A DNA stretch of 39,285 bases from a virus, in the IMG/VR virus record IMGVR_UViG_3300048930_000281, positions 1 to 39,285 of that record, one strand, 5' to 3'. Below the pieces are notes generated by a model. The model ran no database searches, had not been told where the DNA came from, and saw only the letters and a program-made list of their open reading frames with translations. Of this stretch, positions 2,216-34,990 are shown piece by piece. A program made the position numbers and the translations under genes. Each line of letters starts with the position of its first letter. Within the stretch, counting starts at the first letter, position 1.

Positions 2216-2659
2216 ATGAAAAACCTACTCGCAATCGCACTCATCGCTTTCACCGCATTCATCGCGCTTCCGTCGTTTTCGGCAGTCACGCAATCGGACA
2301 CCGTAGGCCTCGAATGGGATGCCGTGACGGAACCCGGGAAAGACGAGTTCGGAAATCCGGCAACGCTAAGTGGTTATAAAATTTACTTCGGGAAGAACCC
2401 AAGTGCATTCAGCCACGTTAAAGAAGTCCTACTTGTTACACAGACAACGATTGATATCCCGGAAGGAGGCAAGTGGTATTTTGTTTGTGTTTCAGTGAAC
2501 TCTGATGGAGTTGAAAGTCTTCCTTCCGATGTTGTCGAATATTCGACTATTGGAGAACCCGGAACTCGCCCAGGAACGCCAACGCTTAGAATCGTCTCAG
2601 CCACCACAACGAAGGCGTCGACCGTGACGACTGTTGAGAATATCACGCTGGTTCCCTGA
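2216..2659 (+). CDS. Exported fibronectin type III domain protein
   Basis: A 147-aa protein with an N-terminal Sec signal peptide (residues 1 to about 22; hydrophobic LLAIALIAFTAFIA). One FN3-like domain follows: VGLEWDAVTEP, then LSGYKIYFGKN, KWYFVCVSVNSDGVES and LPSDVVEYS, which match the B, C, F and G strands of FN3 folds. A short Thr-rich tail ends the protein. FN3 domains are common on phage surface proteins and on secreted bacterial enzymes. The frame is open further upstream within the fibre gene, but the signal peptide fixes ATG 2216. Base composition is visibly less GC-rich than in neighbouring tail genes. Its role is unknown; surface decoration or adhesion is likely. Confidence 0.75.
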   Translation: MKNLLAIALIAFTAFIALPSFSAVTQSDTVGLEWDAVTEPGKDEFGNPATLSGYKIYFGKNPSAFSHVKEVLLVTQTTIDIPEGGKWYFVCVSVNSDGVESLPSDVVEYSTIGEPGTRPGTPTLRIVSATTTKASTVTTVENITLVP

Positions 2660-2726
2660 GCCAAAACCCAACTGATGCCGTACCGATGGACGCATGCCGC
2701 GAACTCGAAGCAAGAGGAGGAGTCCG

Positions 2727-3119
2727 ATGAAACGGAACCCGTGGATCATCGCCTGGGCGAGTGTTCCAGCTGCGGTGCTGGCGTGCTGGTGGATTCTTGG
2801 AGGAATCTCCAGTTGGGTCGGTATACCGAAGCGCTTGGAGGTGCTGGAAGGGAATTACGGCGTGATGTCCAAGCGTGTCGACACGCTCACATTCGACGTG
2901 CAGTCCTTTCGCTCGGAGGTTTCTGCAACGTCCAAGCGGCAATCAGAAGACCTAGGCGAACTCATCAAAGGACAACGCGACATTAGCGCAGTAATCAATG
3001 TGATGCAGAGGGACGCGTCGGTGGCGTCGCGTGATTCGATTGCCTACGGCGAGAAGATCAAGAGCTTGCAGGTGGCAGTCGATTCACTCATTCAATCCAA
3101 GATGGAAGGAACGAAATGA
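2727..3119 (+). CDS. Membrane-anchored coiled-coil protein, possible inner-membrane spanin
   Basis: A 130-aa protein with one N-terminal transmembrane helix (about residues 6-30, Trp-rich, preceded by Lys-Arg) and then an extended helical region with heptad-like spacing (RLEVLEGNYGVMSKRVDTL and onwards). That is the shape of inner-membrane spanins and of small phage membrane coiled coils. ATG 2727 has a strong Shine-Dalgarno sequence (GAGGAGGAG, 2714-2722 region), unusual in this genome; the in-frame ATG at 2694 has none. It is followed without a gap by a small basic gene and a holin-sized membrane gene, which suggests a lysis group. The function is inferred from shape only. Confidence 0.65.
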   Translation: MKRNPWIIAWASVPAAVLACWWILGGISSWVGIPKRLEVLEGNYGVMSKRVDTLTFDVQSFRSEVSATSKRQSEDLGELIKGQRDISAVINVMQRDASVASRDSIAYGEKIKSLQVAVDSLIQSKMEGTK

Positions 3120-3226
3120 AGAACAAGACCAAGAAACCAAAAAAGGCAGTGGCTCCGAAAACCGCTCCCGCTTTGAAGCCGACGAATTCGCCAGGGACAA
3201 AGGGCGGTCGGCGTCGCTTTGATTGA
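3116..3226 (+). CDS. Small lysine-rich protein
   Basis: A 36-aa open frame beginning at ATG 3116, which overlaps the stop of the upstream gene (ATGA), and ending at TGA 3224-3226, two bases before the next ATG. Composition is strongly basic: Lys/Arg make up about a third, with Pro and Ala and an RRRFD end. Coupling at both ends is the main support. No known domain. It could be a nucleic-acid-binding or membrane-associated peptide, or it may serve mainly as a translational bridge between its neighbours. Confidence 0.45.
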   Translation: MKNKTKKPKKAVAPKTAPALKPTNSPGTKGGRRRFD

Positions 3227-3228
3227 CC

Positions 3229-3468
3229 ATGCACCCACTGTTCCAGTTCCTATCCGGTCCATCCGGAAAGACGTCGACAATGCGCGTTCTAACGTGCGTT
3301 GTTGTTCTCACTGTGATGGGGACTTGGTCTTGGGTATCTATCAGCAAGAAAGAGCTTCAACCGATGGATCCCGAGCTGTCCCTGATGGTTCTGGGAAGCC
3401 TAGGGATCAAGGCAGCGCAGCGAGCATCTGAGGGAAAAGAAGCAGGAAAACCACCACACCATGATTGA
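3229..3468 (+). CDS. Small membrane protein, holin candidate
   Basis: A 79-aa protein. The short N-terminus carries SGPSGKTSTMR, followed by a transmembrane helix (about 19-37), a second moderately hydrophobic stretch (about 48-62, LSLMVLGSLGIKAAQ) and a charged tail. Layout and size resemble small phage membrane proteins often called holins, in which a GK.S..R motif precedes the first helix and a KxxQ..E pattern follows the second. ATG 3229 follows the previous TGA as TGACCATG. The stop lies eight bases inside the next gene. No recognisable endolysin is adjacent, so holin function is tentative. Confidence 0.55.
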   Translation: MHPLFQFLSGPSGKTSTMRVLTCVVVLTVMGTWSWVSISKKELQPMDPELSLMVLGSLGIKAAQRASEGKEAGKPPHHD

Positions 3469-3814
3469 ACCAAAGCAAATCACCGTCAGTTTCGAACTCG
3501 GAGAACCGCAAGCTGTCACCGTCCGACCACTGAAGGTTTCGCAGTTTCCATCAGCGTTCCAGGCGTTCGACGCAGAGGACGAGTTGCGGCTTGTCGAGCT
3601 GTCCACCGGGATGCACGCCGGGTGGGCTGCCACTGTTTCCGTCGACTCCTACGGCGAGCTGGTGAACGCCATGCTCGAAGTGAACGGCACGGGTTTTTTC
3701 GCCTATGCCGGGCGGCGAATGATGTTCCGCTCGACAAAGGCCGCTCAGGAAAATCCTCGCAGCGCATCCAATGGCCGGAACACGTCGCCGACCTCGGCAC
3801 GCGGGCTGGTCTGA
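3461..3814 (+). CDS. Tail assembly chaperone, short form (gpG-like)
   Basis: A 117-aa protein directly upstream of the tape measure gene, the standard place for tail assembly chaperones. Its N-terminal ~80 residues form a compact acidic alpha/beta-type sequence (QITVSFELGEPQAVTVRPLK). A second frame, -1 relative to this one, opens over its 3' end and continues to 4023 with no start codon of its own, as in lambda G/GT. The start ATG follows an A/C-rich leader (AAACCACCACACC) and has no Shine-Dalgarno sequence. The last ~35 residues in this frame look low in complexity, as expected of a non-shifted terminus. Confidence 0.75.
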   Translation: MIEPKQITVSFELGEPQAVTVRPLKVSQFPSAFQAFDAEDELRLVELSTGMHAGWAATVSVDSYGELVNAMLEVNGTGFFAYAGRRMMFRSTKAAQENPRSASNGRNTSPTSARGLV

Positions 3815-4023
3815 CCCCGCAGGAGACCGGCGAATGCGACCTCGAAACACTGGAGCAATGGGCGCAGGCTGGCGACAGGGCCGAGGCGCGGCGGATGCTG
3901 ACTCTGGCCTCAGTCGTCCAGGTGGCGATGGCATCGACTCAGCACAAGGACAACGCGAAGGTGTTCCGGGAACTCTGTGACTCGCTGAAGGAACAGGCCG
4001 AAGACTATGGCGAACGTCGTTGA
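3461..4023 (+). CDS. Tail assembly chaperone, -1 frameshift product (gpGT-like)
   Basis: The fusion is read in frame from 3461 and moves to the -1 frame, ending at 4023. The best slippery site is T-TTT-TTC at 3694-3700, in register with the zero frame (codons TTT TTC); slippage there gives a 187-aa fusion. The -1 frame has no ATG, GTG or TTG between 3622 and 3894, yet encodes a plausible helical domain (CDLETLEQWAQAGDRAEA, then a repeat of Ala/Leu helices) that ends 17 bases inside the tape measure gene. A weaker alternative slip is G-GAA-AAT at 3748-3754. By analogy with lambda, the fusion recruits tape measure protein and the short form coats it. Confidence 0.7.
3694..3700 (+). promoter_or_regulatory. 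Putative -1 ribosomal frameshift slippery heptamer
   Basis: TTTTTTC sits in the X XXY YYZ register of the chaperone gene, with zero-frame codons TTT and TTC. Both tRNAs could re-pair in the -1 frame. It lies just after the point where the -1 frame becomes the one that continues to the tape measure gene. I did not find a convincing downstream pseudoknot by eye. Confidence 0.6.
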
Positions 4024-5800
4024 AATCATCCTGAAGATGGGCGGCGGCGCCCAGGTACAGGCCCAACTGAAGGGCATCCAAGCTGGGTTCGCTTCGGTGC
4101 GCGACGGGTGGCAGCAACTCACCGGGGCGCTTGCCGCGGCGGGTGTGACGACGGCGCTTCGGTCAATGTGGCGCGCTGCCGAGGAGGCCCGCGTTGCGTC
4201 GTTCCGCCTAATGACAGCGCTGGAGGCATCCGGTCAGGCTGCTGTTGGCGCTGCTGAAGGGATGTCCTCGCAGGCCGAGGCGCTGGAAAGCCTCACCGGC
4301 ATCTCGGACGAAACCACGATGGCGGTGCAGTCGTTGCTCTTGTCGATGGGCGCGACGGCCAACCAAGTTGAACGGCTCACCCCGCTTGTTCTCGACGTCT
4401 CGGCGGCGATGGGGACGGACGCGCTCACTGCGGCGCGGCAGCTTGGCCAGGCGCTAGACGGCCAGGAGATTCAACTGGGCCGGCTGAACATCAGGGTCAA
4501 GACGTTCGACGAGCTGCTAGACGTGTTGAACAACCGGGTGCGCGGCCAGGCTGCTGCGCTCCTGCAAGCCAAGGGGCCGGCCGCTGAGTTGGGGGTGGAG
4601 ATTGGCCGGCTGTCCGAAACGATTGGCGAGATGCTCAACCAGATGGCGAGCCCGACGCTCTCCGTTTTTGCTCGGTCGCTCGCATCAGCGAATCAGGCAC
4701 TCAGCGGGCTGCTCGCCGTCTACAACCTGCCCGGTACAATCCAGGGGCAGATTGACGCGTCGGCATCCGAAGGGCTTCGGTCGACTCCCGGAGGCATCGG
4801 TACCGGCGACGAGGAAGGCCCCGCCATCGAAGCCGAACGCCAGCGCCAGGCATCCGCCGCCCAAGCGCTCCTGCAGGTGGAGGCCAACCTGAACAACCAG
4901 TATGCGTTTCGGCGCGCCCTCATCGAATCCGACCCGTTCATGGGCGAGGTGGAACGACAGGAGGCGCTGGCATCCGTCCTACGCGACGAGTTGCCCGTGT
5001 TGCAGGAACGCGAGGACTTGCTCCGTGCGGAGTTCGAGCGGCAGACCCGGGCGGACCCAGGCCGCACCCTCGAAACCACCATCGAGGCGGAGCGCCAGTT
5101 GACGGAGGCACAGCTTGAGCGGTTGCGCGCAACGGAGCGCATCGAGGCCATCCAACGATCTGGGACGTTCTCCGGAGCGCTGGCCGCCCGGGTGAACGAA
5201 CTCCGCGACGCATTCGGCAACATGGCGGTTTCCATGGCGAACGTTGCATTCAACGTCGTCACGTCCGGGGTGGAAGGCCTGAGCGGCGCGCTCACGTCCA
5301 TCATCATGGGAACGAAGACCGCCGCCCAGGCGTTCGCCCAGTTCGGCCAGCAACTCCTCACGACGTTCATCCAGCAGATCATCACGGCGGTGCTCTACGC
5401 CAAGGTGGCTATCCCGATCCTGACCGCCCTCGGCGTGCTGTCCGGTGGCGTCACTGCGGCATCTGGCGCGGCGGTGACAACGGCGGCGCTGTCGTCCGGC
5501 ATGGCTGCGGCATCGGCGGCAACGTCCGGAGGCTTCGCCGCTGGCGGGTACACCGGGGACGGCCCCACCATGCAGGTGGCCGGCGCGGTTCACCGGGGCG
5601 AGTTTGTATTCCCTGCCCAGGCGGTGCGCCAGTATGGCGTCGCCAACCTCGAGGCGATGGCGTTTGGAGGGGGTGGGGAGTCGGGCGGTGAATCTAGCCC
5701 GATGCGCGTCGTGATCGTGGACGACCGGCGCGGCGCCCAACAGCTCATGCGGGATCCGCGCTTCAAATCCTTCATCGTCGACCTTTCGCGCAACGCATGA
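4007..5800 (+). CDS. Tape measure protein
   Basis: A 597-aa protein of the tail tape measure type, which sets tail length and helps DNA entry. It begins with long Ala/Gln-rich helices, includes a segment about a tail-completion cycle (SLTGISDETTMAVQSLLLSMG, about residues 95-115), then helical repeats rich in Glu/Arg, a hydrophobic stretch near residues 440-505, and the C-terminal signature GGFAAGGYTGDG...GAVHRGEFVFPAQAVRQYG seen in many tape measures. At about 1.5 angstrom per residue a tail near 90 nm would be expected. The start overlaps the chaperone fusion by 17 bases; the stop overlaps the next ATG (ATGA). Confidence 0.9.
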   Translation: MANVVEIILKMGGGAQVQAQLKGIQAGFASVRDGWQQLTGALAAAGVTTALRSMWRAAEEARVASFRLMTALEASGQAAVGAAEGMSSQAEALESLTGISDETTMAVQSLLLSMGATANQVERLTPLVLDVSAAMGTDALTAARQLGQALDGQEIQLGRLNIRVKTFDELLDVLNNRVRGQAAALLQAKGPAAELGVEIGRLSETIGEMLNQMASPTLSVFARSLASANQALSGLLAVYNLPGTIQGQIDASASEGLRSTPGGIGTGDEEGPAIEAERQRQASAAQALLQVEANLNNQYAFRRALIESDPFMGEVERQEALASVLRDELPVLQEREDLLRAEFERQTRADPGRTLETTIEAERQLTEAQLERLRATERIEAIQRSGTFSGALAARVNELRDAFGNMAVSMANVAFNVVTSGVEGLSGALTSIIMGTKTAAQAFAQFGQQLLTTFIQQIITAVLYAKVAIPILTALGVLSGGVTAASGAAVTTAALSSGMAAASAATSGGFAAGGYTGDGPTMQVAGAVHRGEFVFPAQAVRQYGVANLEAMAFGGGGESGGESSPMRVVIVDDRRGAQQLMRDPRFKSFIVDLSRNA

Positions 5801-7818: not shown

Positions 7819-8245
7819 CGCCGAACTGGACCGGCTCGAAGCCGCCGCCGCCGCGTGGGTGGGAACCCCGTGGTGCGACAACTCGGGCACGATTGGGGCC
7901 GGTGCGTGCTGCCATCGGTTGCTGGCTGCGGTCTACGTCGCGGCCGGGTGGCTCCCTGAGTTCGATCTGCCTCGCGGGATCTCCGGGCACGCTCGCGGGA
8001 ATGATCGTCCCGTCATGCTTGAATGGTTCCGCACGGCCGGGGACCGCTGGTTTGAGGAGGTGCAGGACGTTCAAACCGGCGACGCGCTTTTGATTCACGT
8101 CGGGCACGCTCCGCACCACCTCGGGCTCGCGCTTCGAGACGGGCGGGTGCTTCACGTGTCGACTCGGCAGGGGGTTCGAATCATCCAATCCGGCGGCCAG
8201 TGGCTCAGGCTGCTGGCGCATGCGTTCCGCCCAAAAACCGTATGA
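7805..8245 (+). CDS. NlpC/P60-like tail peptidase
   Basis: A 146-aa protein that probably cleaves cell-wall peptides during DNA entry from the tail tip. The N-terminal helix with WVGTPW is typical of phage NlpC/P60 proteins. The likely nucleophile is Cys36 in GACCHRLL (Cys35 is adjacent), the catalytic His is His104 or His105 in HHLGLAL, and the polar third residue is His117 in VLHVST. The usual Asp before the Cys is replaced by Cys. The start overlaps the hub gene by 14 bases and the stop overlaps the next gene by ATGA. It could also serve in lysis, since no separate endolysin is evident. Confidence 0.8.
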   Translation: MARSDAELDRLEAAAAAWVGTPWCDNSGTIGAGACCHRLLAAVYVAAGWLPEFDLPRGISGHARGNDRPVMLEWFRTAGDRWFEEVQDVQTGDALLIHVGHAPHHLGLALRDGRVLHVSTRQGVRIIQSGGQWLRLLAHAFRPKTV

Positions 8246-8436: not shown

Positions 8437-8439
8437 ATC

Positions 8440-8754: not shown

Positions 8755-8757
8755 CCT

Positions 8758-11298
8758 ATGGGAAGCGGAGGCAAAGCAGGTGGCGCCGGTTCGAAGTCGT
8801 ACGACTATTACGGCACCGTAGTGGGCGCGATCTGCTGGGGTCCGGCGCATACCCTGCAAGCGCTCATCGTGGACGGGAAGCAGGTAGTCACCGGCCCTGT
8901 CACGCTATCGACCGCCGCCACCGATCTAGACCTCGACCCAGGCGCCGACGCGTTCCTCGACAGCGGCGGGCGGATCACGGTCTACCGGGGTGACCAGACC
9001 TCATCCGATGCGGCGCTCGACGGCCACCCACCCTACGCCGGCCTGTGCTACGTCGTCGCGGTGGGCCTGCTGTTCGGCCGCGAACGCACGACTGCGCCAA
9101 ACGTCCAGGCCATCGTTTCGCGGCTCCCCCAGGCCGACACGTCGCTTTGCCCGGCGCTGGAGAACATCTTCACCAACCTCGACGGAGCGTCGAAACCGCA
9201 GACATCGAGCCAGGTGAACCCCGTCGCGGCACTCGTCGAGCTGCTCACCTCACGGCATGGGCTCGGGATGCCCGTGGGAGCGCTCGACACCACGTCGTGG
9301 CTCGCAGCCTCCGCGTGGGCCTACCACTCCGACCGGCGCTCCTACACGTTTTGCTCCCCATCGTTCACCGGTCAGACGGACGCCCGGGGCGCCATCCGGA
9401 CGTTGCTGGAGATGATCGATGCCACGCTCTACTGGACAACCACCGGGACGCTCGCCATTGCGCTACTCAAGCCCGGCGTGACGCCCGGCTCCCCGCTCAC
9501 CATCGACGCCCGCCACATCACCGCCCGGCATCGCCTTGAGGCTCCTGGGCTCGCGGACGTGCCGACCACGACCCTTGTCCGCTACAGCGACCGGGACCGG
9601 CAATGGAAGGAAAGGGAGCAAAAGGCCGACAACCTCGTTGCCTTGGGGCTGCGTTCTGGCGTGTCTCAAGTGCAGACCGTCGACCGGCCCCACATCACCG
9701 GGGCCGACCAAGCGGCGCGCCACGCGGCTGAGATGTCGCTTCGAGCCTCACGCCCCATCGGCTCCGTGGAGATCACCGTGCGGCGCCCCATCGTCGAGGG
9801 GCTGCACCCGGGGGACAAGGTCCTCGTCGACATCGACCCCGAGCCGGGCGGCAGCGGGCTCGCGCAACTGTGCGTCATCGAGGAGATGGAGGAGAACGCG
9901 GGCGGACCCGTTCGAATGGATCTCCGGCCTGATACGATGGTGACGGCGACCACCTACTCACCCGAATGGACCGTCGAAACCCCGCAGGATAATTCATGCC
10001 CGCCCATCGACGAGGCTAAGGCCATCGTGATTCCCCTTCCGTCGCCAGTGTGGCCGACCCCATCGGTGGCCGTGCTCGCCACCCGACCGCGCTCCGATGT
10101 CGTTGGGTTCCGAGTGTTTTACAGCCCCGATGACGCGGACTACGCGGACCTCGGGTTGCAGTCCGGGTTCTCGGTTCGTGCGGCGCTGAAGGCCGGAACC
10201 GAACTGGAGACCGACGCGGACGAGGTGACGCTCACCCTGCCGGACGGTGACTCTGGGCCTGACGCCTACCTCGCCGGGCGATACCCGACGACCGATGCCG
10301 GAACCCAGGCGGACGAGTTGTTGCTGGTCCTGGCCAACGTCTCAGGCGGCGAGGTGGTGATCACGAACGGCGAGCCGGAGATCGAGATTTGCTCGATTCA
10401 ATCCCGCGCCCTGGACGGCTCAGACATGGTTTACACCATCGCCCGGGGGAGGCTCGGCTCGCTGGTGCGGGAGTGGGACGACACGGCTTCGTGCTGGATT
10501 CTCCCGAGCGTGTCGCTTGAGGCATGGACCCACCCCGGCATCGCCGACCAGATCGAGACCGGGGCCGCCGGCTACCTTCACCTCGTGGCGTACACCGCCG
10601 AGGACACCGACGACAGCAGCCCAATCCCTGAGCTGACGTTTTTGATGCCGGGCAACGCTGACCCGGCCCCGGTTATCGCATGGACGGCTCCCAGTGACTC
10701 GGCGGCGGCGACGGACGGCAATGGGCTCTACGTGCCCGCCTTCACGGTGACCGACCTCCAGGGGGACCTCGTCGACGTGCAGCTCACCAGCCAGGACACC
10801 GATGGGAACATGCGGCTGTGGGGTCGGTGGCCAATCGCCCCGAGCCGGTCCTGGGTTTATGCGACGGCTGCCGGGGATCCTGTGGTGATGCCTGCCGCTG
10901 GCGTCTACCGGTTGACGGTGACGGCCACCGACCGGCGCGGCTCCGTGACATCCTCCACGCGCACGCTTGAGCGGCTCGCGGTTAGCGGCGGGGATTCCAT
11001 CCCGGCCCCGAGGTTCGACCCGCCGTCAGGGCATCGGTTCTACCGGCAAGACGGGGTGAACATTTCGCGGACGGGCACGGCGGACCGGATCGAGTGGCAG
11101 CTCTCGCCTCCCGGCACGGTGGCTCCCCAGGTGATCGGCGGCGGTGACCCGCTGCCCAGCGGGTGGACTCGCGTCGACCTGTCCACCGCGAACCCCGCGA
11201 CGCCGGTTCTTCGGGCTTCCGCAAGGCTCTGGGCGCGGGCCGGGGACGGGACCAACTGGAGCGGGTGGGTGTTCGCGGATTATGAGAGGACGCAATGA
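8758..11298 (+). CDS. Tail tip / host-specificity protein (gpJ-like)
   Basis: An 846-aa protein, the largest in the genome. Its N-terminus (GSGGKAGGAGSKSYDYYGTV) is typical of phage tip proteins that follow a hub and a peptidase. After a hub-like region (residues 1 to about 400) there is a DUF-like beta domain, and residues near 620-840 contain repeated beta-sandwich material (VIAWTAPSDSAA, YRLTVTATDRRG) like FN3/PKD modules at the tip. It probably forms the central spike and contacts the host. The start is the TGACCTATG junction with no Shine-Dalgarno sequence. It is the last clear virion gene before the minus-strand block. Confidence 0.8.
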   Translation: MGSGGKAGGAGSKSYDYYGTVVGAICWGPAHTLQALIVDGKQVVTGPVTLSTAATDLDLDPGADAFLDSGGRITVYRGDQTSSDAALDGHPPYAGLCYVVAVGLLFGRERTTAPNVQAIVSRLPQADTSLCPALENIFTNLDGASKPQTSSQVNPVAALVELLTSRHGLGMPVGALDTTSWLAASAWAYHSDRRSYTFCSPSFTGQTDARGAIRTLLEMIDATLYWTTTGTLAIALLKPGVTPGSPLTIDARHITARHRLEAPGLADVPTTTLVRYSDRDRQWKEREQKADNLVALGLRSGVSQVQTVDRPHITGADQAARHAAEMSLRASRPIGSVEITVRRPIVEGLHPGDKVLVDIDPEPGGSGLAQLCVIEEMEENAGGPVRMDLRPDTMVTATTYSPEWTVETPQDNSCPPIDEAKAIVIPLPSPVWPTPSVAVLATRPRSDVVGFRVFYSPDDADYADLGLQSGFSVRAALKAGTELETDADEVTLTLPDGDSGPDAYLAGRYPTTDAGTQADELLLVLANVSGGEVVITNGEPEIEICSIQSRALDGSDMVYTIARGRLGSLVREWDDTASCWILPSVSLEAWTHPGIADQIETGAAGYLHLVAYTAEDTDDSSPIPELTFLMPGNADPAPVIAWTAPSDSAAATDGNGLYVPAFTVTDLQGDLVDVQLTSQDTDGNMRLWGRWPIAPSRSWVYATAAGDPVVMPAAGVYRLTVTATDRRGSVTSSTRTLERLAVSGGDSIPAPRFDPPSGHRFYRQDGVNISRTGTADRIEWQLSPPGTVAPQVIGGGDPLPSGWTRVDLSTANPATPVLRASARLWARAGDGTNWSGWVFADYERTQ

Positions 11299-11740: not shown

Positions 11741-11907
11741 CGGCACCCCCCGCACCGGCTGAGCGGTCGACGCTCCAGCTCCCGCCCCTGCGCATCGACG
11801 ATGACCCGGATAGCGACAGGCTGACCGCACTCCGAACACTCCCCACGGGCGGCACGTCGGGCTCTGACGGCGGCTTGGCGGGGGGCTGACTTGGGTTTTG
11901 GTTTCAT
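11737..11907 (-). CDS. Zinc-ribbon miniprotein (56 aa)
   Basis: A short minus-strand frame from ATG at 11907 to TGA at 11737-11739. The N-terminus is very basic (MKPKPKSAPRQ and then Arg-rich), followed by ECSECG, a beta-hairpin-like stretch, and CGGCR at the end. The two Cys-x2-Cys pairs, about 25 residues apart, form a plausible zinc ribbon. The stop overlaps the next start, supporting an operon. Such miniproteins are often nucleic-acid binders or host-takeover factors; no target can be named. Confidence 0.6.
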   Translation of the reverse strand: MKPKPKSAPRQAAVRARRAARGECSECGQPVAIRVIVDAQGRELERRPLSRCGGCR

Positions 11908-11946
11908 TGTAGTGCCTTTCGGATTGGTAGATGCGTCGATGGTGGG

Positions 11947-12147
11947 TTACTTGGCGGGACCGATTACCCCACCGCTTCCGATGGTTCCGGCTGTCGGTTT
12001 TGCGACCTGCTTAGCGGTATAAGTTTCGCCGCATCCCGCGCACTGCCAAAACCCGCGAGTGATCATATGGAGGGAGTGATTGCCGGAGTGCGATAGGCCG
12101 CAGCGGGCTGTTGTGGTTTGGGTTTGCTTTGTGGTTTTTGAGTTCAT
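11947..12147 (-). CDS. Zinc-finger-like miniprotein (66 aa)
   Basis: The first gene of the minus-strand run. Its N-terminus is Thr/Gln-rich (MNSKTTKQTQTTT), then CGLSHSGNHSLHMI and FWQCAGCGETY supply one Cys, several His and a Cys-x2-Cys, the usual ligands of a small zinc finger. The tail is Gly-rich. The region upstream of its start (12148-12263) holds an inverted repeat that could be its operator. It is similar in kind to the neighbouring zinc-ribbon gene but not an obvious duplicate of it. Confidence 0.6.
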   Translation of the reverse strand: MNSKTTKQTQTTTARCGLSHSGNHSLHMITRGFWQCAGCGETYTAKQVAKPTAGTIGSGGVIGPAK

Positions 12148-12350
12148 CGGGTTCTCGCTTTCGACGTGCCCAACCTAGCCAACCGCATCCCGTGTGTCAC
12201 TCTTTTTTTGCGTGACTCAACCGATTCATTGCAACCCGTTGTGAATGAGCCTAGAAAAACCGCACCGTGGACCTTGAATCCATCTTCGCGTTCGTGCTGG
12301 TGCTTGCAGCGCTGGGCCTTTACACGGGCCTTCCTTCCACCTTTCGGGCC
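12148..12350. promoter_or_regulatory. Intergenic region upstream of the minus-strand zinc genes, with inverted repeats
   Basis: About 200 bases between the start of the minus-strand zinc gene and the end of the minus-strand RHH gene. I see an imperfect inverted repeat at 12226-12248 (TCATT-g-CAAC-cc-GTTG-tg-AATGA) and GTCAC/GTGAC arms around a T-rich stretch at 12196-12216. Either may be an operator or terminator for the minus-strand transcript. A plus frame starting GTG at 12267 encodes a hydrophobic N-terminus but overlaps the RHH gene antisense, so I did not call it. Confidence 0.4.
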
Positions 12351-12560
12351 TCAAAAATCAGGTTTGGCGATTTGCCTGATCACACCAGAGGCAACCTCCC
12401 GCCGCCTGCGGACATCTTCGTTGCTCTGGTCGCAATAGAACATGATCACTTCTGTTCCAAGCTCCTCCATTGAAAGGCCGACAGCAGCGGCAGCGGCTTT
12501 GATTCCACGTTTCATTTCTGCCGGAACTCGAAGGTTCAGTTGTTCTAATTCGTTAGGCAT
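12351..12560 (-). CDS. Ribbon-helix-helix regulator (minus strand)
   Basis: A 69-aa protein with an Arc/CopG-type ribbon-helix-helix fold: a beta strand (LNLRVPAEMK, about residues 8-17), helix 1 (GIKAAAAAVG), the turn LSMEE and helix 2 (ELGTEVIMFY). Such proteins bind palindromic DNA as dimers of dimers. It is transcribed divergently from another RHH gene at 12649, with only 88 bases between the two starts. That region holds several palindromes, the expected binding sites. It is probably a repressor of itself and of the neighbouring promoter, as Arc and Mnt act in the P22 immI region. Confidence 0.8.
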   Translation of the reverse strand: MPNELEQLNLRVPAEMKRGIKAAAAAVGLSMEELGTEVIMFYCDQSNEDVRRRREVASGVIRQIAKPDF

Positions 12561-12648
12561 GACGCGGTGAAAATGGCTTCATTCCTAGGAATGTCAACCC
12601 TGAGACGTTGACGTGATTTCTAGAATCCTCTAATTCTGAGCGCGTCAC
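12561..12648. promoter_or_regulatory. Divergent control region with palindromic operators
   Basis: Between the two RHH genes lie a perfect palindrome ATTCCTAGGAAT (12581-12592), a GTCAAC/GTTGAC inverted repeat (12593-12612), a near palindrome GATTTCTAGAATC (12615-12627), and outer arms TGACGCG (12560-12566) and CGCGTCA (12641-12647) that place both start codons symmetrically. The two CTAG-centred sites share a TTCnTAGnAA-like core and lie 35 bases apart centre to centre. Divergent promoters must lie here, though I cannot identify clear -35 and -10 boxes. Confidence 0.65.
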
Positions 12649-12912
12649 ATGAGCAACCGACTTCAGTTGAACGTGGAAGTGCCCCGAGCAATTGCCTCGC
12701 GTTTGCGAGCTGACGCGAGGCGATCAGGGCGAAGCCTAAACGACGTGGCTACAACGATCTTTGCCGACTTCCTGAACGGCTGGACAACCGAGGAACGCGG
12801 CAAGTTTTACGCTCAGTTTCAGCCGAAAGGCTCAGGCCGTCCGGTTGGTCGTTCCAAGAAACGCAATGGGGTGAAGACCCCATCCGGAGCGAAAGCCGAG
12901 GTGGTCGCGTGA
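12649..12912 (+). CDS. Ribbon-helix-helix regulator (plus strand)
   Basis: An 87-aa protein. Residues 3-45 form an Arc/CopG-like RHH: strand LQLNVEVPRA, helix 1 (IASRLRADARRSG), turn RSLND, helix 2 (VATTIFADFLNGW). The basic C-terminal tail (SKKRNGVKTPSGAK) may add DNA contacts. It heads the plus-strand early operon and faces the minus-strand RHH gene. Its ATG lies inside the outer inverted repeat of the shared control region, so either protein could block its translation or transcription. The stop overlaps the next GTG start. Confidence 0.8.
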   Translation: MSNRLQLNVEVPRAIASRLRADARRSGRSLNDVATTIFADFLNGWTTEERGKFYAQFQPKGSGRPVGRSKKRNGVKTPSGAKAEVVA

Positions 12913-13094
12913 ACCTCCTCCCCATCGTCTACATCATCCGCGCGCTCTGCAAATGGCGGCGCATCCGGATCCACTCCTGGCTCGCACCCCGCGAGCGGCT
13001 CGCCTGGCGATTGGCAGTCCTGGGCAAGATTTCGTTTAACCGTTCCGACAGGCTTTTTCGCTGCATGCAGCGAGTACGGAAGGGGGACGCATGA
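12909..13094 (+). CDS. Small basic protein
   Basis: A 61-aa protein from GTG 12909, coupled to both neighbours by stop/start overlaps. It starts with a hydrophobic stretch (LLPIVYIIRALC) followed by an Arg/Trp-rich, cationic sequence (KWRRIRIHSW, RERLAWRLAVLG). It could be peripherally membrane-bound. No known family. Gene coupling is the main reason to accept it. Confidence 0.5.
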   Translation: MNLLPIVYIIRALCKWRRIRIHSWLAPRERLAWRLAVLGKISFNRSDRLFRCMQRVRKGDA

Positions 13095-13462
13095 GTGAGG
13101 TGATTATCACTCTGGGATTTGCGCTTGTCGGTTTCGGCGTTCTATCCGCCCTCGCCACTGCGTCCCGTCGCTCGGAGCAGTGGCTCGCAGCGGAGGACGA
13201 CGACGGCATCCGTGGCGCATGGTGGCGCCAGTCAGCTTCCTCGGCCCCGCCCAGCTTCGACGGCGGCGCGTTCATGGGTTCCGCGCATGGTGGGGCCGAG
13301 GTTCATTTCGATAGCGTCGGTTCTCGCACATACGTGACCCAACAGGGCGTTGTGCTGGAGGCCGAAATCGTCGGGCCGAACCTACTCCGGATCGTTGGTC
13401 CGATCACATCTCCCAAGGGCACCCAGCCGACACCTAGCAACCCATCCGCATCCCATGCCTGA
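13091..13462 (+). CDS. Single-pass membrane protein
   Basis: A 123-aa protein with an N-terminal transmembrane helix (about residues 4-24, VIITLGFALVGFGVLSALAT), an acidic-to-Ser/Gly-rich middle and a beta-rich end (VTQQGVVLEAEIVGPNLLRIVG). It is encoded in the early operon straight after two small genes, coupled by ATGA, with a purine-rich GGAAGGGGG before the start that may act as a Shine-Dalgarno sequence. Membrane proteins expressed early are often superinfection-exclusion or host-modifying factors, but nothing in the sequence proves that here. Confidence 0.55.
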   Translation: MSEVIITLGFALVGFGVLSALATASRRSEQWLAAEDDDGIRGAWWRQSASSAPPSFDGGAFMGSAHGGAEVHFDSVGSRTYVTQQGVVLEAEIVGPNLLRIVGPITSPKGTQPTPSNPSASHA

Positions 13463-13577
13463 TGGACAAATAGGCGGGGCTTCTTTTCTCACTCACTCAA
13501 AACCCATGCCTTCCTACAGCACCCGAACCGGCGCCGGCTGGTTCATGCGGAGGGCGCTTCATCACTCGAAAAACCCA

Positions 13578-14522
13578 ATGAACACAGCACCAACCACACC
13601 AACGAACGCCATAAGTATCGCAGAAATCATCGCCAAGTCACCGGACCCGGTGAAGGCCATCGCCGACCTCGGCGCCATGCTCGGCAAATCCCAGATGCTC
13701 GGACCCGTCGACCGGGTAGAGATCGGACAGGTTGCCGTGATGGTCTGCGCGACCACCGGCATGAGCATTGCCGACTTGCTCCGCACCTATTCCATCCAGT
13801 TCGGGAAGCTCGTCAAACTGAACGACGCAGCGGTGGCTGAGTTCCGAAAGGCCGGTGGCGTCATCAAATGGTCGGAGGACGGCAGCGACGGCAAATCCGC
13901 CCGCGCTGTTTTCACTCTCGGCGAGGACTCCGCGGAAGCCTCCTGCACCGTCGAGAAGGCTGCGAAGGCGGGGTGGACACGAAACACCAAGTGGGCCACT
14001 GAACCGACCTCCATGCTCCGCGCCCGGGTGACGAAGGACGGGATCCGCCGCATCGCCCCGTGGATTTTCGCTGGAGAGTACGACGAAGACAGCGTGCCCG
14101 ATGTCGCGATTGACCCGGCCACCGCTGCCGCATCCGCCGCCCGCACTGCTGCTGCACCGACCCCGGCCCCGGCTCGCGGAATGGATTTCGGAGCCATGTC
14201 CAAGGCGTTGGAAGAAGACAGGGCGGCGAAGGCGAGAGTTGCGGAAGCATCGAAACCGACTCCGGCACCAGCGACCACGCCGGCACCTGCACCGGCACCG
14301 GCTGCGGCAACGCTCTCGCACGAAGTCCAAGGGCAACTCGTCGCGATGCTCGGCGAGGCCAACCTCCCACACGCTCAGGCGTGGCTCATCTCAGTGGGTT
14401 GGCTGAAGGCCGGCCAGTCCATGGAGGAACTGCCTGAGAAGCACGCCCGCGCCATGCTCGCGAAACCTGACGCTGTGAAGGCTAAGCTCGCCGAGTTCAT
14501 AGCGAAAGGCGGCGCGAAGTGA
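13578..14522 (+). CDS. RecT-like single-strand annealing protein
   Basis: A 314-aa protein. Residues 20-170 resemble RecT/Redbeta-family annealing proteins: a helical start, GMSIADLLRTYSIQFGK (about 61-77), the beta-rich core IKWSEDGSDGKSARAVFTL, and the hallmark order W...EPTSMLRARV...IRRIAPWIFAGEYDE (about 139-170). An Ala/Pro-rich linker (about 181-260) follows, then a separate C-terminal helical domain (about 262-312). It would anneal complementary single strands during recombination-dependent replication, with the nuclease encoded three genes on. ATG 13578 has an AAAAACCCA leader; in-frame ATG 13506 is an alternative. Confidence 0.7.
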   Translation: MNTAPTTPTNAISIAEIIAKSPDPVKAIADLGAMLGKSQMLGPVDRVEIGQVAVMVCATTGMSIADLLRTYSIQFGKLVKLNDAAVAEFRKAGGVIKWSEDGSDGKSARAVFTLGEDSAEASCTVEKAAKAGWTRNTKWATEPTSMLRARVTKDGIRRIAPWIFAGEYDEDSVPDVAIDPATAAASAARTAAAPTPAPARGMDFGAMSKALEEDRAAKARVAEASKPTPAPATTPAPAPAPAAATLSHEVQGQLVAMLGEANLPHAQAWLISVGWLKAGQSMEELPEKHARAMLAKPDAVKAKLAEFIAKGGAK

Positions 14523-20818: not shown

Positions 20819-21033
20819 CCCGCCTCCCCATCACCGACCTCATCGACTGCGCCCGCCGCGAGCTGGAGCTTCGCCGGAAATGTTACCCCGGATGGGTGAG
20901 ACAAGGGCGGATGGTTCAGGCGAAGGCTGACCACGAAATCCAGTGCATGGAGGGAATCATGGAGAGGCTGAACACGTTCCGTTTGGTGAATGAATCGGCG
21001 GTGGAGATGAAGGAGAATGGGATTTTATTATGA
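20815..21033 (+). CDS. Small conserved phage protein (72 aa)
   Basis: A 72-aa helical protein: DLIDCARRELELRRKCYPGW, then VRQGRMVQAKADHEIQCMEG. The pattern of an aromatic/Pro phrase (YPxWV) between two helices that end in an A-x2-E-I..ME phrase is common in small proteins of phage replication modules, but the function is not known. It is coupled by ATGA to the genes on either side and has a purine-rich AAGGGAG upstream. Confidence 0.65.
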   Translation: MTRLPITDLIDCARRELELRRKCYPGWVRQGRMVQAKADHEIQCMEGIMERLNTFRLVNESAVEMKENGILL

Positions 21034-21386
21034 AACGAATCGCACTATTCGGACTCGTTCTTGCCCTGTCGGCATTCGCCGCCGACGCGCCACGGCCATC
21101 GGCTTCGATGTCCGCCGCTCAGAACATCCGCGGGCAAGTCGGCGTGATGATTGCGGAGGTGGAGGACGCGCAAGGCTGGGAGCAAGCATCGCTAGACAAT
21201 CTCACAGCCCTGGAAGCGGAGGTGGGGGCGGTACAGAAGACGGTTCAGGCGCTCGCGGATAAGATTCGACGCTCGCAGGCGGACCAGATTGGGCGGGTTA
21301 CGTCGTTGGCGACCAAGGCGCAGTTGCTCCGGGAGGAACTGGCGGCAATCGACAGGATCATTGCGAAGCTGGAGGTGGCGCCGTGA
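21030..21386 (+). CDS. Exported or membrane-anchored coiled-coil protein
   Basis: A 118-aa protein with a signal peptide (MKRIALFGLVLALSAFAA, cut probably near residue 17) followed by a helical coiled coil: NLTALEAEVGAVQKTVQALA and SLATKAQLLREELAAIDR. It is odd to find an exported protein between a helicase and a primase. It could be an envelope-directed early protein, for example one affecting superinfection or the cell surface. It is coupled to both neighbours. Confidence 0.6.
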   Translation: MKRIALFGLVLALSAFAADAPRPSASMSAAQNIRGQVGVMIAEVEDAQGWEQASLDNLTALEAEVGAVQKTVQALADKIRRSQADQIGRVTSLATKAQLLREELAAIDRIIAKLEVAP

Positions 21387-24222: not shown

Positions 24223-24227
24223 ACCCC

Positions 24228-27701: not shown

Positions 27702-27735
27702 AGAACGAGCGGAAAGTGTGCGCTCCTGATGGTGC

Positions 27736-30766: not shown

Positions 30767-30811
30767 TCACTCCGAGAAACAAGCAACTCAACTCTTTCGA
30801 CTCACTGACAT

Positions 30812-31717: not shown

Positions 31718-31730
31718 CCAATCGACGGGC

Positions 31731-31750
31731 GCCGCGTGAGATATCGCGGC
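31731..31750 (+). terminator. Stem-loop after major capsid gene
   Basis: GCCGCG (31731-31736) and CGCGGC (31745-31750) form a 6-bp GC stem with an 8-base loop in the 62-base gap after the capsid gene. It lacks a clear T-run, so it may attenuate or process the transcript rather than terminate fully. Confidence 0.4.
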
Positions 31751-31779
31751 TTCCGCCAAACATCGATCAAGGAGGCAGA

Positions 31780-32103
31780 ATGCACCCTATTTCCGTAGTG
31801 CTCGCAATCGTTGGAGGAAAGCCGGTGGTGAAGTACGCCGGTTTCAACTCCCACGACGCGGAGAAGGTTTTCACCGATGCGCGAACCGATGCGAAGAACA
31901 CCGGGCTTGCGCTGGTTCAAAACGCCTACCCTCGACTGACCTGCAACCCTTCCGAGGAGGCTGTTGCTGCGAAAGTCGAGGAAGAGCAACGCAAGCAGCG
32001 CGAGGAAGCCGCGGCGAATGCCGAGGCCATTGCTGCCAAAAATCGAGTGGATGATCTGAAGGCCAAACTCAAGGAAGCCGAGAAGGCTCTCCCGAAGGCC
32101 TGA
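31780..32103 (+). CDS. Head-associated hypothetical protein with coiled-coil tail
   Basis: A 107-aa protein. The first ~50 residues are globular (PISVVLAIVGGKPVVKYAGF), and residues 60-105 are a charged coiled coil rich in Ala/Glu/Lys. It has the strongest Shine-Dalgarno sequence in the genome (AAGGAGG at 31769-31775), suggesting high expression, as expected of a head protein. It could be a capsid accessory or head-completion protein. Confidence 0.6.
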   Translation: MHPISVVLAIVGGKPVVKYAGFNSHDAEKVFTDARTDAKNTGLALVQNAYPRLTCNPSEEAVAAKVEEEQRKQREEAAANAEAIAAKNRVDDLKAKLKEAEKALPKA

Positions 32104-32105
32104 AA

Positions 32106-32438
32106 ATGTCCGCCATCCTCACAGCATCATTGAACGCTTTCCGCGAGAACCTCCGCTTGCACGGAGAACGTCTCGCGCTTCCGTGGGGTGCTGTGGTCCT
32201 CGGCCTGGTGCGTCGTGATGTGGTTGGCGCGGCGCGCCGGGCCGGGGTTCCTGATTTTTCAACTCGGGCCTCGGTCTCCATCGAGATCGAGAAACCCGTT
32301 GAACCGATCACCGTCGGCAAGTACCTCACGCCGGCCGGATCCAACGCCGAACGGTTTCGCGTGGCGGAGATCCTGGCCGAGACTGGCTATTCCCTCCGGT
32401 TGCTCTGCGAGTCATCCAACCCCCAGGCGGTGACATGA
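32106..32438 (+). CDS. Head-tail joining protein candidate
   Basis: A 110-aa protein with an N-terminal helix (LTASLNAFRENLRLHGERLA) and a beta-rich end (VSIEIEKPVEPITVGKYLTP, then ILAETGYSLRLLC). Size, fold pattern and position (second gene after the major capsid) match head-completion or stopper proteins such as lambda gpFII/HK97 gp6-7. It starts two bases after the upstream stop and overlaps the next ATG. Confidence 0.55.
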   Translation: MSAILTASLNAFRENLRLHGERLALPWGAVVLGLVRRDVVGAARRAGVPDFSTRASVSIEIEKPVEPITVGKYLTPAGSNAERFRVAEILAETGYSLRLLCESSNPQAVT

Positions 32439-33109
32439 GCCAGACCATCGACCAATTCAACGCGACGCTGGGGCGGTACGCTCAACTGTCGCGCCTGACT
32501 CCGCCCGAGGTGCTGGCCAAGCAGGGCACCAAGCTGTCCTTCGCTCTCCGTGCCCAGCTCTCGAAGCTCAAGCCCGAGAAAGGCGCGGTGCGCGAGGCGC
32601 GCAAGGCGGCGATGGCTGCCGGCGCCGGCATCAAGGTGCGACCTGGCGCGCTTGAGTTCGCCAAAAAGAGGACGATGGCGACGGCTTCCAACCTGAGCAC
32701 CCGCAAGGAAGGGCTCTTCATGGAGAAGACGAAGGCCGGAAACGTGAAGCGCAACGGGCGCTCCTTCTGGCAGATCGCCGTTGACCGAGAGCTTTCCATT
32801 CGCGAGTCAGGGCGCGGGTACCTGTCACTCGCTGGTCGGATGCGCTATGTCGACAAGGCTCTGATCATGGGCTCGACGTTCCGAATTACTGACCGTATCC
32901 GGCGTGAGGTGGGCCGGGCCGGGATGGTGGTAAACCCGGACGGCGCAACCCTGACGTTCGACTACTCAAACCCCAACATTTTCGAAGGTCTCAGCAGGAC
33001 CAAAGGCAAGGCTGCCATTGACTCGGCGCTGAAGGAGACGAGCGCGGACATGCTCCTATACGTGAACCGTAAGCTTGCCGAGAACGCCAGAAAGGCAGGG
33101 TTGAACTGA
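32435..33109 (+). CDS. Neck or minor tail protein
   Basis: A 224-aa basic protein: RYAQLSRLTPPEVLAKQGTK, then a Lys/Arg-rich helical middle (KAAMAAGAGIKVRPGALEFA) and an Asn/Lys-rich end. It holds the place of the lambda gpZ / HK97 gp10-type tail-completion protein, between the head-tail connector and the tail terminator. I do not recognise a specific motif. Coupled by ATGA upstream and TGATG downstream. Confidence 0.6.
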   Translation: MSQTIDQFNATLGRYAQLSRLTPPEVLAKQGTKLSFALRAQLSKLKPEKGAVREARKAAMAAGAGIKVRPGALEFAKKRTMATASNLSTRKEGLFMEKTKAGNVKRNGRSFWQIAVDRELSIRESGRGYLSLAGRMRYVDKALIMGSTFRITDRIRREVGRAGMVVNPDGATLTFDYSNPNIFEGLSRTKGKAAIDSALKETSADMLLYVNRKLAENARKAGLN

Positions 33110-33555
33110 TGGCACGCACCGCACTCACGGCGTTGCAGTCTTCCATCGTCGCCGCGCTTCAGGCGGACCCGTGGTTTGCCGGGATCCCGATCATCGCCGA
33201 CATGGGAGCCCAGGCAGACTATGAGCGATTCGAGAAAGCGCTGGCTGAAGAAGGAATCACCGTGGTTGTTCACACGGTCAAGGGATGCTCTCGCGTTGCA
33301 TCCGCCCGCGGCGTCGCTCTGGTTCGCGCCATGTTCGACCTCGAAGTTGTCGAGAACCCGGACAGGAATCCGGAGTCCGCAAACAAGGACCTGCTCACTA
33401 CGGCTTCGAACGCTCTCCGCATCGTGACGAGTTTTGACAGTGGCCCCGGCGAATCGCAGCCCGAGCCGGAATCGAACCTCATGGATCTGGCAGTCAATGA
33501 CACCGGCCTGAGGGCCTTCATCCTCCCGTTCTCGAAAATCGTTCAACTCTCCTGA
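33109..33555 (+). CDS. Tail terminator-like protein
   Basis: A 148-aa protein. It begins with a helix (TALQSSIVAALQADPWFAGI), then GITVVVHTVKGCSRV and a strand-rich end (SFDSGPGESQPEPESNL; FILPFSKIVQL). This mixed alpha/beta pattern and the position directly before the major tail protein fit tail terminators such as lambda gpU. The stop is half of a TGACATATG junction. Confidence 0.6.
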   Translation: MARTALTALQSSIVAALQADPWFAGIPIIADMGAQADYERFEKALAEEGITVVVHTVKGCSRVASARGVALVRAMFDLEVVENPDRNPESANKDLLTTASNALRIVTSFDSGPGESQPEPESNLMDLAVNDTGLRAFILPFSKIVQLS

Positions 33556-33558
33556 CAT

Positions 33559-34119
33559 ATGCCTATCTCCGCTCAATTCACCGGCGCCCTTACTGGCCAC
33601 GTCCTCTTCGTTCCGGAAGGAACGGCGTTCACGGTTCCAAGCGCAGGCACCACCGGGAAGAACGACAAGCCTGGCGCTGGCGACACCTCTTGGGCCTCCG
33701 GAAACTTCGGGGATGTCATGGAGCTGCAATTCGCTCCTGAGAACGAGGTTACCCCGATCAAGGGCGGGTCCCCTGGCGGCCTGATGACCAAGGATCTCGT
33801 CGAGATTTCGCGTGACCTCAAGATCACGTTCAAAAGCCAGCAGATGGACCCGACTTTTCTGCGGCTCGCCTTCGCCACGCTGGCGCTCACCACGTCCAGC
33901 AGCCAGGCCAACCCGCTCGAAGGAAAGGCTCTCGTCAAGGGGTGGATGAAGATCCAGGCCTACGACGTGGACCACATTTTGCGCGTCATCGGTGACGTGT
34001 GGGTAGGGGTTCGGCTCACCGGCATGGAGCAGTGGAGTGGACGAAACATCGTCGGTGGCACCTTCGAGGCTCAGGTGCTCTACAGCCAGTACAACACCCT
34101 CGCTTTCGCAACCTCCTGA
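33559..34119 (+). CDS. Major tail protein
   Basis: A 186-aa protein in the standard place after the tail terminator. It has a loop-rich N-terminal part (LTGHVLFVPEGTAFTVPSAG), then the strand pattern EISRDLKITFKSQQMDPTFL and a C-terminal beta run (VKGWMKIQAYDVDHILRVIG, GTFEAQVLYSQYNTLAFA) typical of tail-tube beta sandwiches. Highly expressed in most phages; here the start has no Shine-Dalgarno sequence but sits in a TGACATATG context. Confidence 0.8.
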   Translation: MPISAQFTGALTGHVLFVPEGTAFTVPSAGTTGKNDKPGAGDTSWASGNFGDVMELQFAPENEVTPIKGGSPGGLMTKDLVEISRDLKITFKSQQMDPTFLRLAFATLALTTSSSQANPLEGKALVKGWMKIQAYDVDHILRVIGDVWVGVRLTGMEQWSGRNIVGGTFEAQVLYSQYNTLAFATS

Positions 34120-34122
34120 CCT

Positions 34123-34557
34123 ATGCCCTGGGACAACACCGCGCCGGTTCTCGCCCCAATCCAGTCCGGACTCTGGGCGTCAGTCCGGTTCGCTTTAACT
34201 TCGGGAGTTACCGACCCGCTCACCATCGCCAACGGCGCCACGGTGGACGGTCTCACTGTCGCAACTGGCAACCGATTCGTGTGCGTTGGTACGCGGGCGG
34301 ATGCCGGGATTTATGTGGTTGGGGCCAGCGCTTCAACCAGGGCAACCGACGCCAACGAGGCCGCCGAGTTCGTGGCGCACCGGGCGGTCGACGTGACGGC
34401 AGGATCAGCGGACAACATCGGCCGGTGGGTTCACAAAACCACGGCAGCGATCACTCTTGGAACTACCGATCTCACATTCTCGAAACTGACAGCCGAGGAC
34501 GAGACGCTTTTATCCGGATCTTTCGACAACACGGCGCCGAGCGCAGCCACGCTGTGA
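34123..34557 (+). CDS. Fibre-type beta domain protein with DNTAP motif
   Basis: A 144-aa protein. The middle (ANGATVDGLTVATGNRFVCV, then AGIYVVGASASTRATDANEA) is a domain found repeatedly in phage and bacterial fibre-like proteins, where dGV.L..GDR.L...... nGIYvV..... R..DA is the pattern. It carries WDNTAP at its N-terminus and FDNTAP near its end. Not a complete fibre by itself; probably decorates the tail tube or starts the fibre cassette. Confidence 0.65.
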   Translation: MPWDNTAPVLAPIQSGLWASVRFALTSGVTDPLTIANGATVDGLTVATGNRFVCVGTRADAGIYVVGASASTRATDANEAAEFVAHRAVDVTAGSADNIGRWVHKTTAAITLGTTDLTFSKLTAEDETLLSGSFDNTAPSAATL

Positions 34558-34561
34558 TGCG

Positions 34562-34990
34562 ATGGAATTCGACAATACAGCGCCGGAATCGACCAGCCTC
34601 GACGTTGCGGGTTGGGACAATTCGCCGGCAATCGGGATCACGTTTGCAACGGCAAGCCTCGTCTACTTTGGATCATCGGAAAGCGAGACGCTGGATGAAG
34701 GCCGGGCAAAGTCCGAGCTGTCATCCGTCGAAAGGCCGGGACTGGCTGGCAGCTACGCCTGCGCGGAAGGCGGATTCAAATATCTCCTCGTGCCGCTTGG
34801 GGTGGATGCTCCGACGACCATTCGAGACCTCGCCACAGGCATCAACGTGTTCCTCGCCGGCGAGGGTGAAGGCTATGGAACGGTTACCAATGAACTCACC
34901 CACGGTTCGCTTGTTATCGACGGCATTTCCTACCGCGTTTACCGCTCCGCCTACGTGCTTGGAGCAGAAATAAACCTTCAGGTTACCTGA
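34562..34990 (+). CDS. Hypothetical tail protein with DNTAP motif
   Basis: A 142-aa protein beginning EFDNTAPESTSLDVAGWDNS, so the DNTAP motif of the preceding gene recurs. The rest is beta-rich (SYACAEGGFKYLLVPLGVDA; LVIDGISYRVYRSAYVLGAE). Coupled to the tailspike gene by TGATG. The two DNTAP proteins may interact or derive from one ancestral gene that split. Confidence 0.6.
   Translation: MEFDNTAPESTSLDVAGWDNSPAIGITFATASLVYFGSSESETLDEGRAKSELSSVERPGLAGSYACAEGGFKYLLVPLGVDAPTTIRDLATGINVFLAGEGEGYGTVTNELTHGSLVIDGISYRVYRSAYVLGAEINLQVT

Follow-up and report, generated by a model that had tools for sequence, protein, structure and literature searches.

Export signals on the tailspike and fibre proteins of a circular phage genome suggest a possible periplasmic step in virion completion

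Why would a tailed phage, whose assembly is by the textbook account cytoplasmic, encode tailspike and fibre proteins that begin like secreted proteins? The absence of signal peptides has been used to support a phage origin for hypervariable binding proteins (PMC6199706), and in the literature that we searched there was no description of phage spikes or fibres bearing export signals. The window analysed here is the whole 39,285-nucleotide stretch of IMG/VR record IMGVR_UViG_3300048930_000281. The genome is circular, as the preliminary description had assumed, with 127 identical bases at the two window ends and a true circle of 39,158 bp. The interval first given for the cassette of interest (2659-34990) was inverted. 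The cassette runs from 34990 to 39285 and across the origin to 2659, with tail genes ending at 34119 on one side and the tape measure at 4007 on the other. Its genes and their neighbours are as follows.

34123..34557, + strand: short fibre/decoration-type protein, no signal (PHROG 2647, E 6e-14, and several fibre PHROGs)
34562..34990, + strand: short protein, no signal, possible fibre head or adaptor (from reading the translation only)
34990..37341, + strand: tailspike, 783 aa (PF12708, E 2e-12; PHROG 23630; EPS depolymerase PHROG 4250)
34990..35046, + strand: predicted signal peptide of the spike, with no ATG, GTG or TTG bypass up to codon 25
37406..38902, + strand: tail fibre, 498 aa, signal-like aa 1-30 at 37406-37495 (Phage tail repeat PF12789, Fibritin_C PF07921)
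38905..39285, + strand: lipoprotein, first part (canonical lipobox, LLTG before C)
128..256, + strand: lipoprotein, last part (1-127 repeats 39159-39285)
263..670, + strand: candidate adaptor, no signal (from translations)
667..984, + strand: short fibre-like protein with a collagen-like stretch, no signal (tail fibre PHROG 28473, E 0.008)
984..2186, + strand: tail fibre, 400 aa, signal aa 1-17 at 984-1034 (PHROGs 9625, 2631, 7032, 4209)
2216..2659, + strand: small FN3-looking protein, 147 aa, signal aa 1-22/23 (sequence reading)
2694..3119, + strand: neighbour, possibly a lysis protein, with a coiled coil and a membrane anchor (Rz-like spanin PHROG, weak, E 0.07)
3229..3468, + strand: neighbour, small, hydrophobic and holin-like (from reading the translation only)

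Owing to the 127-bp overlap of the window ends, the lipoprotein gene at 38905-39285 continues at 128-256 and encodes 169 aa.

All five signal-like N-termini reported at the outset (34990, 37406, 38905, 984, and 2216) are present in the sequence. They were scored with a heuristic predictor that requires a charged n-region, a hydrophobic core, and either the -3/-1 rule or a lipobox. Of the 37 genome-encoded proteins that reach 100 aa, the predictor flagged exactly these five and the product of 21030-21386, and the six genes cluster on the circle (P = 0.003). Of the eight genes spanning the origin between 34990 and 3119, five have Sec or lipoprotein signals at the N-terminus. Because the same heuristic flagged 29 of 1,535 ORFs (1.9%) in approximately 150 phage loci, the probability of this proportion is approximately 1e-7, a value obtained with a threshold picked after the data had been seen. 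Export signals were said to be unexpected on tail-type proteins, and indeed none of 54 genuine fibre-motif ORFs in phage loci carries one.

The signals differ in quality, being strong for 38905 and 984 and good for 34990 and 2216 by the heuristic. Predicted cleavage falls between MKFACISFLAIWFACPLFA and AS in the spike, between MKNFLLPLLFLSLCASA and QI in fibre 984, where the site (ASA before Q) is canonical, and between ALPSFS and AV in protein 2216. In fibre 37406, cleavage is predicted between MIVQRQFKKPQIEALCVLAFCLLSLSLFGA and TR at a weak site, with F/A or L/G as the -3/-1 residues, and a TTG at codon 25 is a possible second start. No ATG, GTG, or TTG lies inside the signal of the spike, fibre 984, or protein 2216, which rules out bypass starts for these three. 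Glutamine at +1 is found in only one of the four SPI-type window proteins, fibre 984.

Short genes without signals accompany the signal-bearing ones, two within the cassette (263-670 and 667-984) and two preceding it (34123-34557 and 34562-34990). The stop codon of 34562..34990 overlaps the start of the spike, and that of 667..984 overlaps the start of fibre 984. Searches of PHROG and Pfam gave no match for the 34562..34990 protein and no significant match for the 263..670 protein; by eye, the latter resembles the first part of the fibre of Akkermansia phage Moulinsart. The 2216-2659 protein matched no profile, FN3 included, so that its FN3 label is a sequence reading only, and tblastn against isolated phages returned nothing for it. 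The 3229..3468 protein had no PHROG match. For two fibre heads, AlphaFold run without an alignment gave mean pLDDT values of 37 and 45. The lipoprotein, with weak matches to PHROG 8241 (E 0.0034) and to the Cor exclusion protein PHROG 1119 (E 0.058), is probably an exported accessory protein in its own right and not a fibre.

The earlier identification of the tailspike holds: it is a real tailspike-type protein, in which the signal (aa 1-19) is followed by a common phage N-domain (aa 20-97) and a pectate-lyase-like region (aa 105-305). In 20 or more IMG/VR homologues, the N-domain starts, signal-less, within a few residues of the Met, and likewise in phages SJC03 and Tunturi_5. In the window spike, the signal stands in place of the homologues' Met, precisely before the N-domain. 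One sheath-bearing prophage, L170, likewise has the N-domain behind a signal (E 2e-5). This is the sole window match to our Bacteroidota sets, in which no homology to the window fibres was detected. A tree test did not reject one common origin for the spike signals (p-AU 0.109).

When viral contigs were scanned for exact peptides of the capsid, tail, and terminase proteins, no close relatives emerged, and tblastn of the MCP against isolated phages gave no match. One related phage, L076, has a tail tube 81% identical to that of the window. Its homologue of the 34123 protein (56% identical) is directly followed by its homologue of fibre 37406, which apparently lacks a signal; this suggests that export is not required for fibre 37406 in every relative. 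A degenerate DNA pattern search for the motif of fibre 984 found four contigs, with the matching fibre signal-less in all of them.

Signal-bearing fibre and spike cassettes recur, with their signals conserved, in Chitinophagaceae-family prophages. In one fibre family from Chitinophagaceae-family genomes, a signal with Q at +1 was present in all eight phage-context members; the family profile was built without the signal, and four of the eight were in the profile build. Two other profile matches (L201 and L202) were discarded, being either non-phage or chance hits. Proteins of the family bear Laminin_G_3, BppL_N, or K1-lyase_C domains, and an adjoining signal-bearing protein has Beta_helix.

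Cultured phages of Cellulophaga provide evidence from particles. Three consecutive proteins of phi18:3 (gp85-87) and four of phi19:1 (gp101-104) are signal-bearing and annotated as virion structural proteins from experimental MS/MS; relatives of phi18:3 gp86 are annotated as pectate lyase. No remark on these signals was found in the record notes or the literature searched. The MS/MS annotations are silent on removal of the signal, and purified virions may contain envelope contaminants, which counts against virion membership based on MS/MS. No signal-bearing fibres were seen in FLiP, phi40:1, P8625, or Moulinsart, and the report that Verrucomicrobia phage P8625 is without any signal peptides (PMC4642752) counts against an export reading.

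On balance, we think that the cassette probably encodes the phage's own receptor-binding and depolymerase proteins, which would be exported by Sec, with processing outside the cytoplasm and attachment to particles. Each spike and fibre protein would have its own Sec signal peptide and would be produced late. Once the host Sec machinery had moved it into the periplasm, signal peptidase would remove the signal, and folding would take place in that compartment. Attachment to particles would occur at or after lysis via signal-less partners made in the cytoplasm (34123, 34562, 263, and 667), and surplus free copies could serve as soluble depolymerase. For this phage, we infer that the proteins are exported and cleaved, where and when they attach, that the signal-less neighbours act as adaptors, and that the exported proteins belong to the virion. 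The possibilities originally listed were export to the envelope, periplasmic addition to virions, and secreted depolymerases, adhesins, or decoys. Of these, we favour a route in which the exported proteins are then built into virions, rather than a role purely as decoys or adhesins, because the Cellulophaga counterparts are annotated from MS/MS as virion proteins. Taken together, the window signals and that annotation suggest that some tailed phages may export host-recognition parts before attaching them. More tentatively, and with somewhat less than even confidence, we propose that several unrelated phage lineages, with hosts in the Bacteroidota and probably the Verrucomicrobiota, may finish their virions outside the cytoplasm, with receptor-binding proteins passing through Sec, maturing in the periplasm, and docking at lysis.

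Alternatively, the signal-bearing proteins could be exported but not be virion parts, acting as soluble depolymerases, receptor-masking decoys, or superinfection-exclusion factors, while binding is done by a conventional adsorption apparatus (the 8758-11298 tip protein with 34123, 34562, 263, and 667). Consistent with this, the same cassette also holds signal-less fibre-type proteins, and the lipoprotein in its middle has the weak Cor match. Furthermore, the signal-bearing Lom of lambda is encoded between tail genes and goes to the host membrane (PMC12309495), and for Q-rule proteins of P. gingivalis phages a role in modifying the outer membrane has been suggested (PMC10367356). Nevertheless, we regard this alternative as unlikely, given that the Cellulophaga proteins with virion annotation are several per phage and consecutive, that the spike retains the N-domain that opens other phages' tail proteins, and that the signal-bearing proteins of Chitinophagaceae prophages sit at expected tail fibre gene positions.

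Less likely again is that the hydrophobic N-termini go unused for export during productive infection, either through internal starts or in an uncleaved cytoplasmic protein whose segment would serve oligomerisation or docking. The TTG at codon 25 of fibre 37406 is close to the start of the L076 homologue, and virion MS/MS alone is compatible with uncleaved protein. However, the spike, fibre 984, and protein 2216 offer no such start. In Bacteroidota, conformity to the Q-rule identifies genuine signal peptidase I substrates (PMC5837995), and phages of these hosts retain the cleavage site together with glutamine at +1, a pattern that is hard to explain unless the host peptidase acts.

It seems very improbable that the proteins are host-benefit adhesins, that is, tail-fibre-like surface proteins taken over from host chromosomes or carried by phages for lysogenic conversion. 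In L041 and L042, two MAG contigs of Chitinophagaceae, signal-bearing spike-N-domain proteins do lie among apparently cellular genes, yet the cassette genes lie inside the late tail module, no integrase match was found among the window proteins scanned (small genes in part), and the Cellulophaga examples come from cultured phages with MS/MS virion annotation. An assembly or gene-calling artefact is scarcely credible, even though the contig is uncultured and its ends overlap by 127 bp, in view of five long open frames, three without a bypass start, overlapping neighbours in phase, and recurrence of the pattern in many unrelated phages.

If spikes and fibres are indeed exported before attachment, tailed phages would have a previously undescribed assembly route. 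Phage assembly would gain a periplasmic step, fibre folding could use periplasmic chaperones, and such genes would be wrongly classed as pectate lyases or as adhesins of the host surface. With the cultured Cellulophaga phages, the export question is directly testable in the laboratory.

Known systems resemble the window in different respects. Ordinary tailspikes and fibres (PF12708-type spikes, fibritin/PTR fibres, and jumbo-phage N-domain proteins) have the same domains and tail-module position, but they are signal-less and assembled in the cytoplasm, whereas four window proteins have signal-like N-termini. Lambda Lom, Cor, and the P. gingivalis phage Q-rule proteins are, like those of the window, phage-encoded with Sec-type signals and can adjoin tail genes, but they are not virion spikes or fibres. 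The Chitinophagaceae cassettes (prophages L170, L182, L183, L184, L197, and L199, and tailless-type contigs L198 and L200) belong to other fibre families, mostly have Q at +1, and are apparently integrated, but they repeat the order of a signal-less short gene with one or more signal-bearing fibres or spikes directly after it. Finally, the Cellulophaga phages phi18:3 (Pachyviridae), phi19:1 (Assiduviridae), phi19:3, phi46:3, Nekkels, Ingeline, and phi3:1 are low-GC phages of Bacteroidota, with no detectable sequence homology to the window proteins and with signals mostly of the Q-rule type, which in the window is limited to fibre 984; they share with the window runs of signal-bearing fibre- or spike-type proteins that adjoin structural genes.

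The window appears to be a complete circular phage genome (IMG/VR), and since positions 1-127 are identical to 39159-39285, a 127-bp assembly overlap, the circle measures 39,158 bp. Its recognisable products include terminase, portal, major head protein, tape measure, and tail proteins as well as a RecT-like protein, a helicase, and a primase; no integrase was found among the window proteins scanned. The cassette crosses the origin, with tail genes ending at 34119 on one side and the tape measure gene (4007) on the other, so that the interval in the preliminary description was inverted. Within it, signal-bearing genes alternate with short signal-less ones (listed by start coordinate):

34123 and 34562, short genes before the cassette, without signal
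34990, spike, signal-bearing
37406, fibre, signal-bearing
38905, lipoprotein, signal-bearing, its gene split by the 127-bp end overlap
263 and 667, short genes inside the cassette, without signal
984, fibre, signal-bearing
2216, FN3-type protein, signal-bearing

Ahead of the tape measure gene, the overlapping frames 3461-3814 and 3622-4023 possibly encode a frameshifted tail assembly chaperone (region 3461-4023).

All five of the Sec signal-like or lipoprotein N-termini previously proposed for the cassette were present according to one fixed heuristic predictor. This heuristic flagged 1.9% of 1,535 ORFs from about 150 phage loci versus five of the eight cassette genes (P about 1e-7, with a threshold chosen after the fact), and the flagged genes were clustered in the window (P = 0.003). 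No start codon (ATG, GTG, or TTG) that would bypass the signal was found in the spike, fibre 984, or the 2216 protein; in fibre 37406, codon 25 is a TTG and the cleavage site is weak. A sixth signal-bearing protein (21030-21386; 118 aa, coiled-coil-like), without a PHROG match, lies in the replication region.

The spike contains a rhamnogalacturonase/pectate-lyase-like domain (PF12708, E 2e-12) behind an N-domain that tail proteins from many phages share. Fibre 37406 matches phage tail repeat and fibritin families and fibre 984 several tail-fibre PHROGs, while PHROG and Pfam profiles gave no firm family for the lipoprotein or the 2216 protein. Judged against homologues, the window signals are additions placed precisely at domain borders. 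More than 20 IMG/VR homologues, and also Bacteroides phage SJC03 and Tunturiibacter phage Tunturi_5, have a spike N-domain that starts at most a few residues after the initiator Met, in place of which the window spike has a 19-residue signal. A related phage, L076 (identity 50% for terminase, 81% for a tail-tube-type protein, and 56% for the 34123 homologue), encodes a homologue of fibre 37406 directly after that of 34123, with a likely GTG start at the position of the window fibre's mature N-terminus and no in-frame signal. This signal-less fibre is likely rather than certain, because the contig stops inside the gene and upstream there is another, weakly hydrophobic ORF in a different frame (score 6.7, below threshold).

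The host is likely a member of the Verrucomicrobiota. Among annotated phages the window terminase is nearest by score to that of Akkermansia phage Moulinsart; and matches to Verrucomicrobia phage P8625 were found for several of its proteins. Shine-Dalgarno sites occur at 7 of 45 window start sites, near the random 10%, and are likewise scarce in Moulinsart (2/31). Not all phages of this phylum have the signal trait, since P8625 was reported without signal peptides (PMC4642752).

The spike N-domain, preceded by a signal, turns up again in L170, a prophage that has both a tail sheath and a tape measure; L172 has it as well, and so do two Chitinophagaceae clusters that appear to be chromosomal. 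These two clusters (L041 4298-10491; L042 2448-8647) consist of signal-bearing tail-fibre-like proteins among apparently cellular genes of metagenome-assembled genomes, possibly domesticated phage fibres. Tracing the neighbouring fibre in L170 led to a family of fibres carried by Chitinophagaceae-family prophages. With a profile built from the mature part only, all eight phage-context members (four of which had built the profile) start with a signal, and its predicted removal would leave glutamine at the new N-terminus. In Bacteroidota, substrates of signal peptidase I follow a known +1 glutamine rule (PMC5837995), and thus these signals look selected for processing. The fibres follow a short signal-less protein, and their settings include sheath-bearing prophages, a prophage whose cassette sits between the head genes and the tape measure gene (L183), and small tailless-looking contigs; associated domains include Laminin_G_3, BppL_N, K1-lyase_C, and Beta_helix. 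The small contigs L198/L203 (G137:C217) and L200 (G187:C47), which share this family with tailed prophages, encode many membrane proteins and resemble small tailless membrane-containing Bacteroidota phages; L203 has, by reading only, an apparent Rep and a P-loop ATPase, whereas L200 carries an integrase. In the fibre cassette of prophage L184, a signal-bearing right-handed beta-helix protein (PF13229; reverse complement, 11829-13919) adjoins a Dam-type methylase gene of the kind that also ends the cassette in L170, L182, L197, and L199.

Cellulophaga phages link such proteins to virions. The consecutive genes gp85, gp86, and gp87 of phi18:3 and gp101-gp104 of phi19:1 are labelled "structural protein, annotation based on experimental MS/MS proteomics analysis", record annotations that do not give cleavage state, and every product has a signal-like N-terminal segment. 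Relatives encoded by phi19:3, phi46:3, Nekkels, Ingeline, and phi3:1 follow this pattern too, and gp86 homologues are annotated as pectate lyase. Two structural proteins taken from these phages as controls (phi18:3 gp99, phi19:1 gp98) had no signal.

Support for virion membership of signal-bearing proteins is thus confined to the Cellulophaga phages. The most likely route for the spike and fibre proteins would begin with Sec export and cleavage of the signal, both inferred from sequence and conservation; the proteins would then fold in the periplasm and join the particles, presumably at lysis, with the signal-less neighbours as putative docking partners. The window phage may follow this route. 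The main rival holds that the proteins are exported without being virion parts, for which lambda Lom (PMC12309495) and the Q-rule proteins of P. gingivalis phages (PMC10367356) are precedents. Taken singly, the parts are of known kinds: tailspikes, fibres, and Sec signals. Their combination, signal-bearing spikes and fibres conserved across several phage groups with virion annotations, was not found described in the open papers searched, though subscription journals may hold descriptions, and assembly outside the cytoplasm, if true, would be categorically new.
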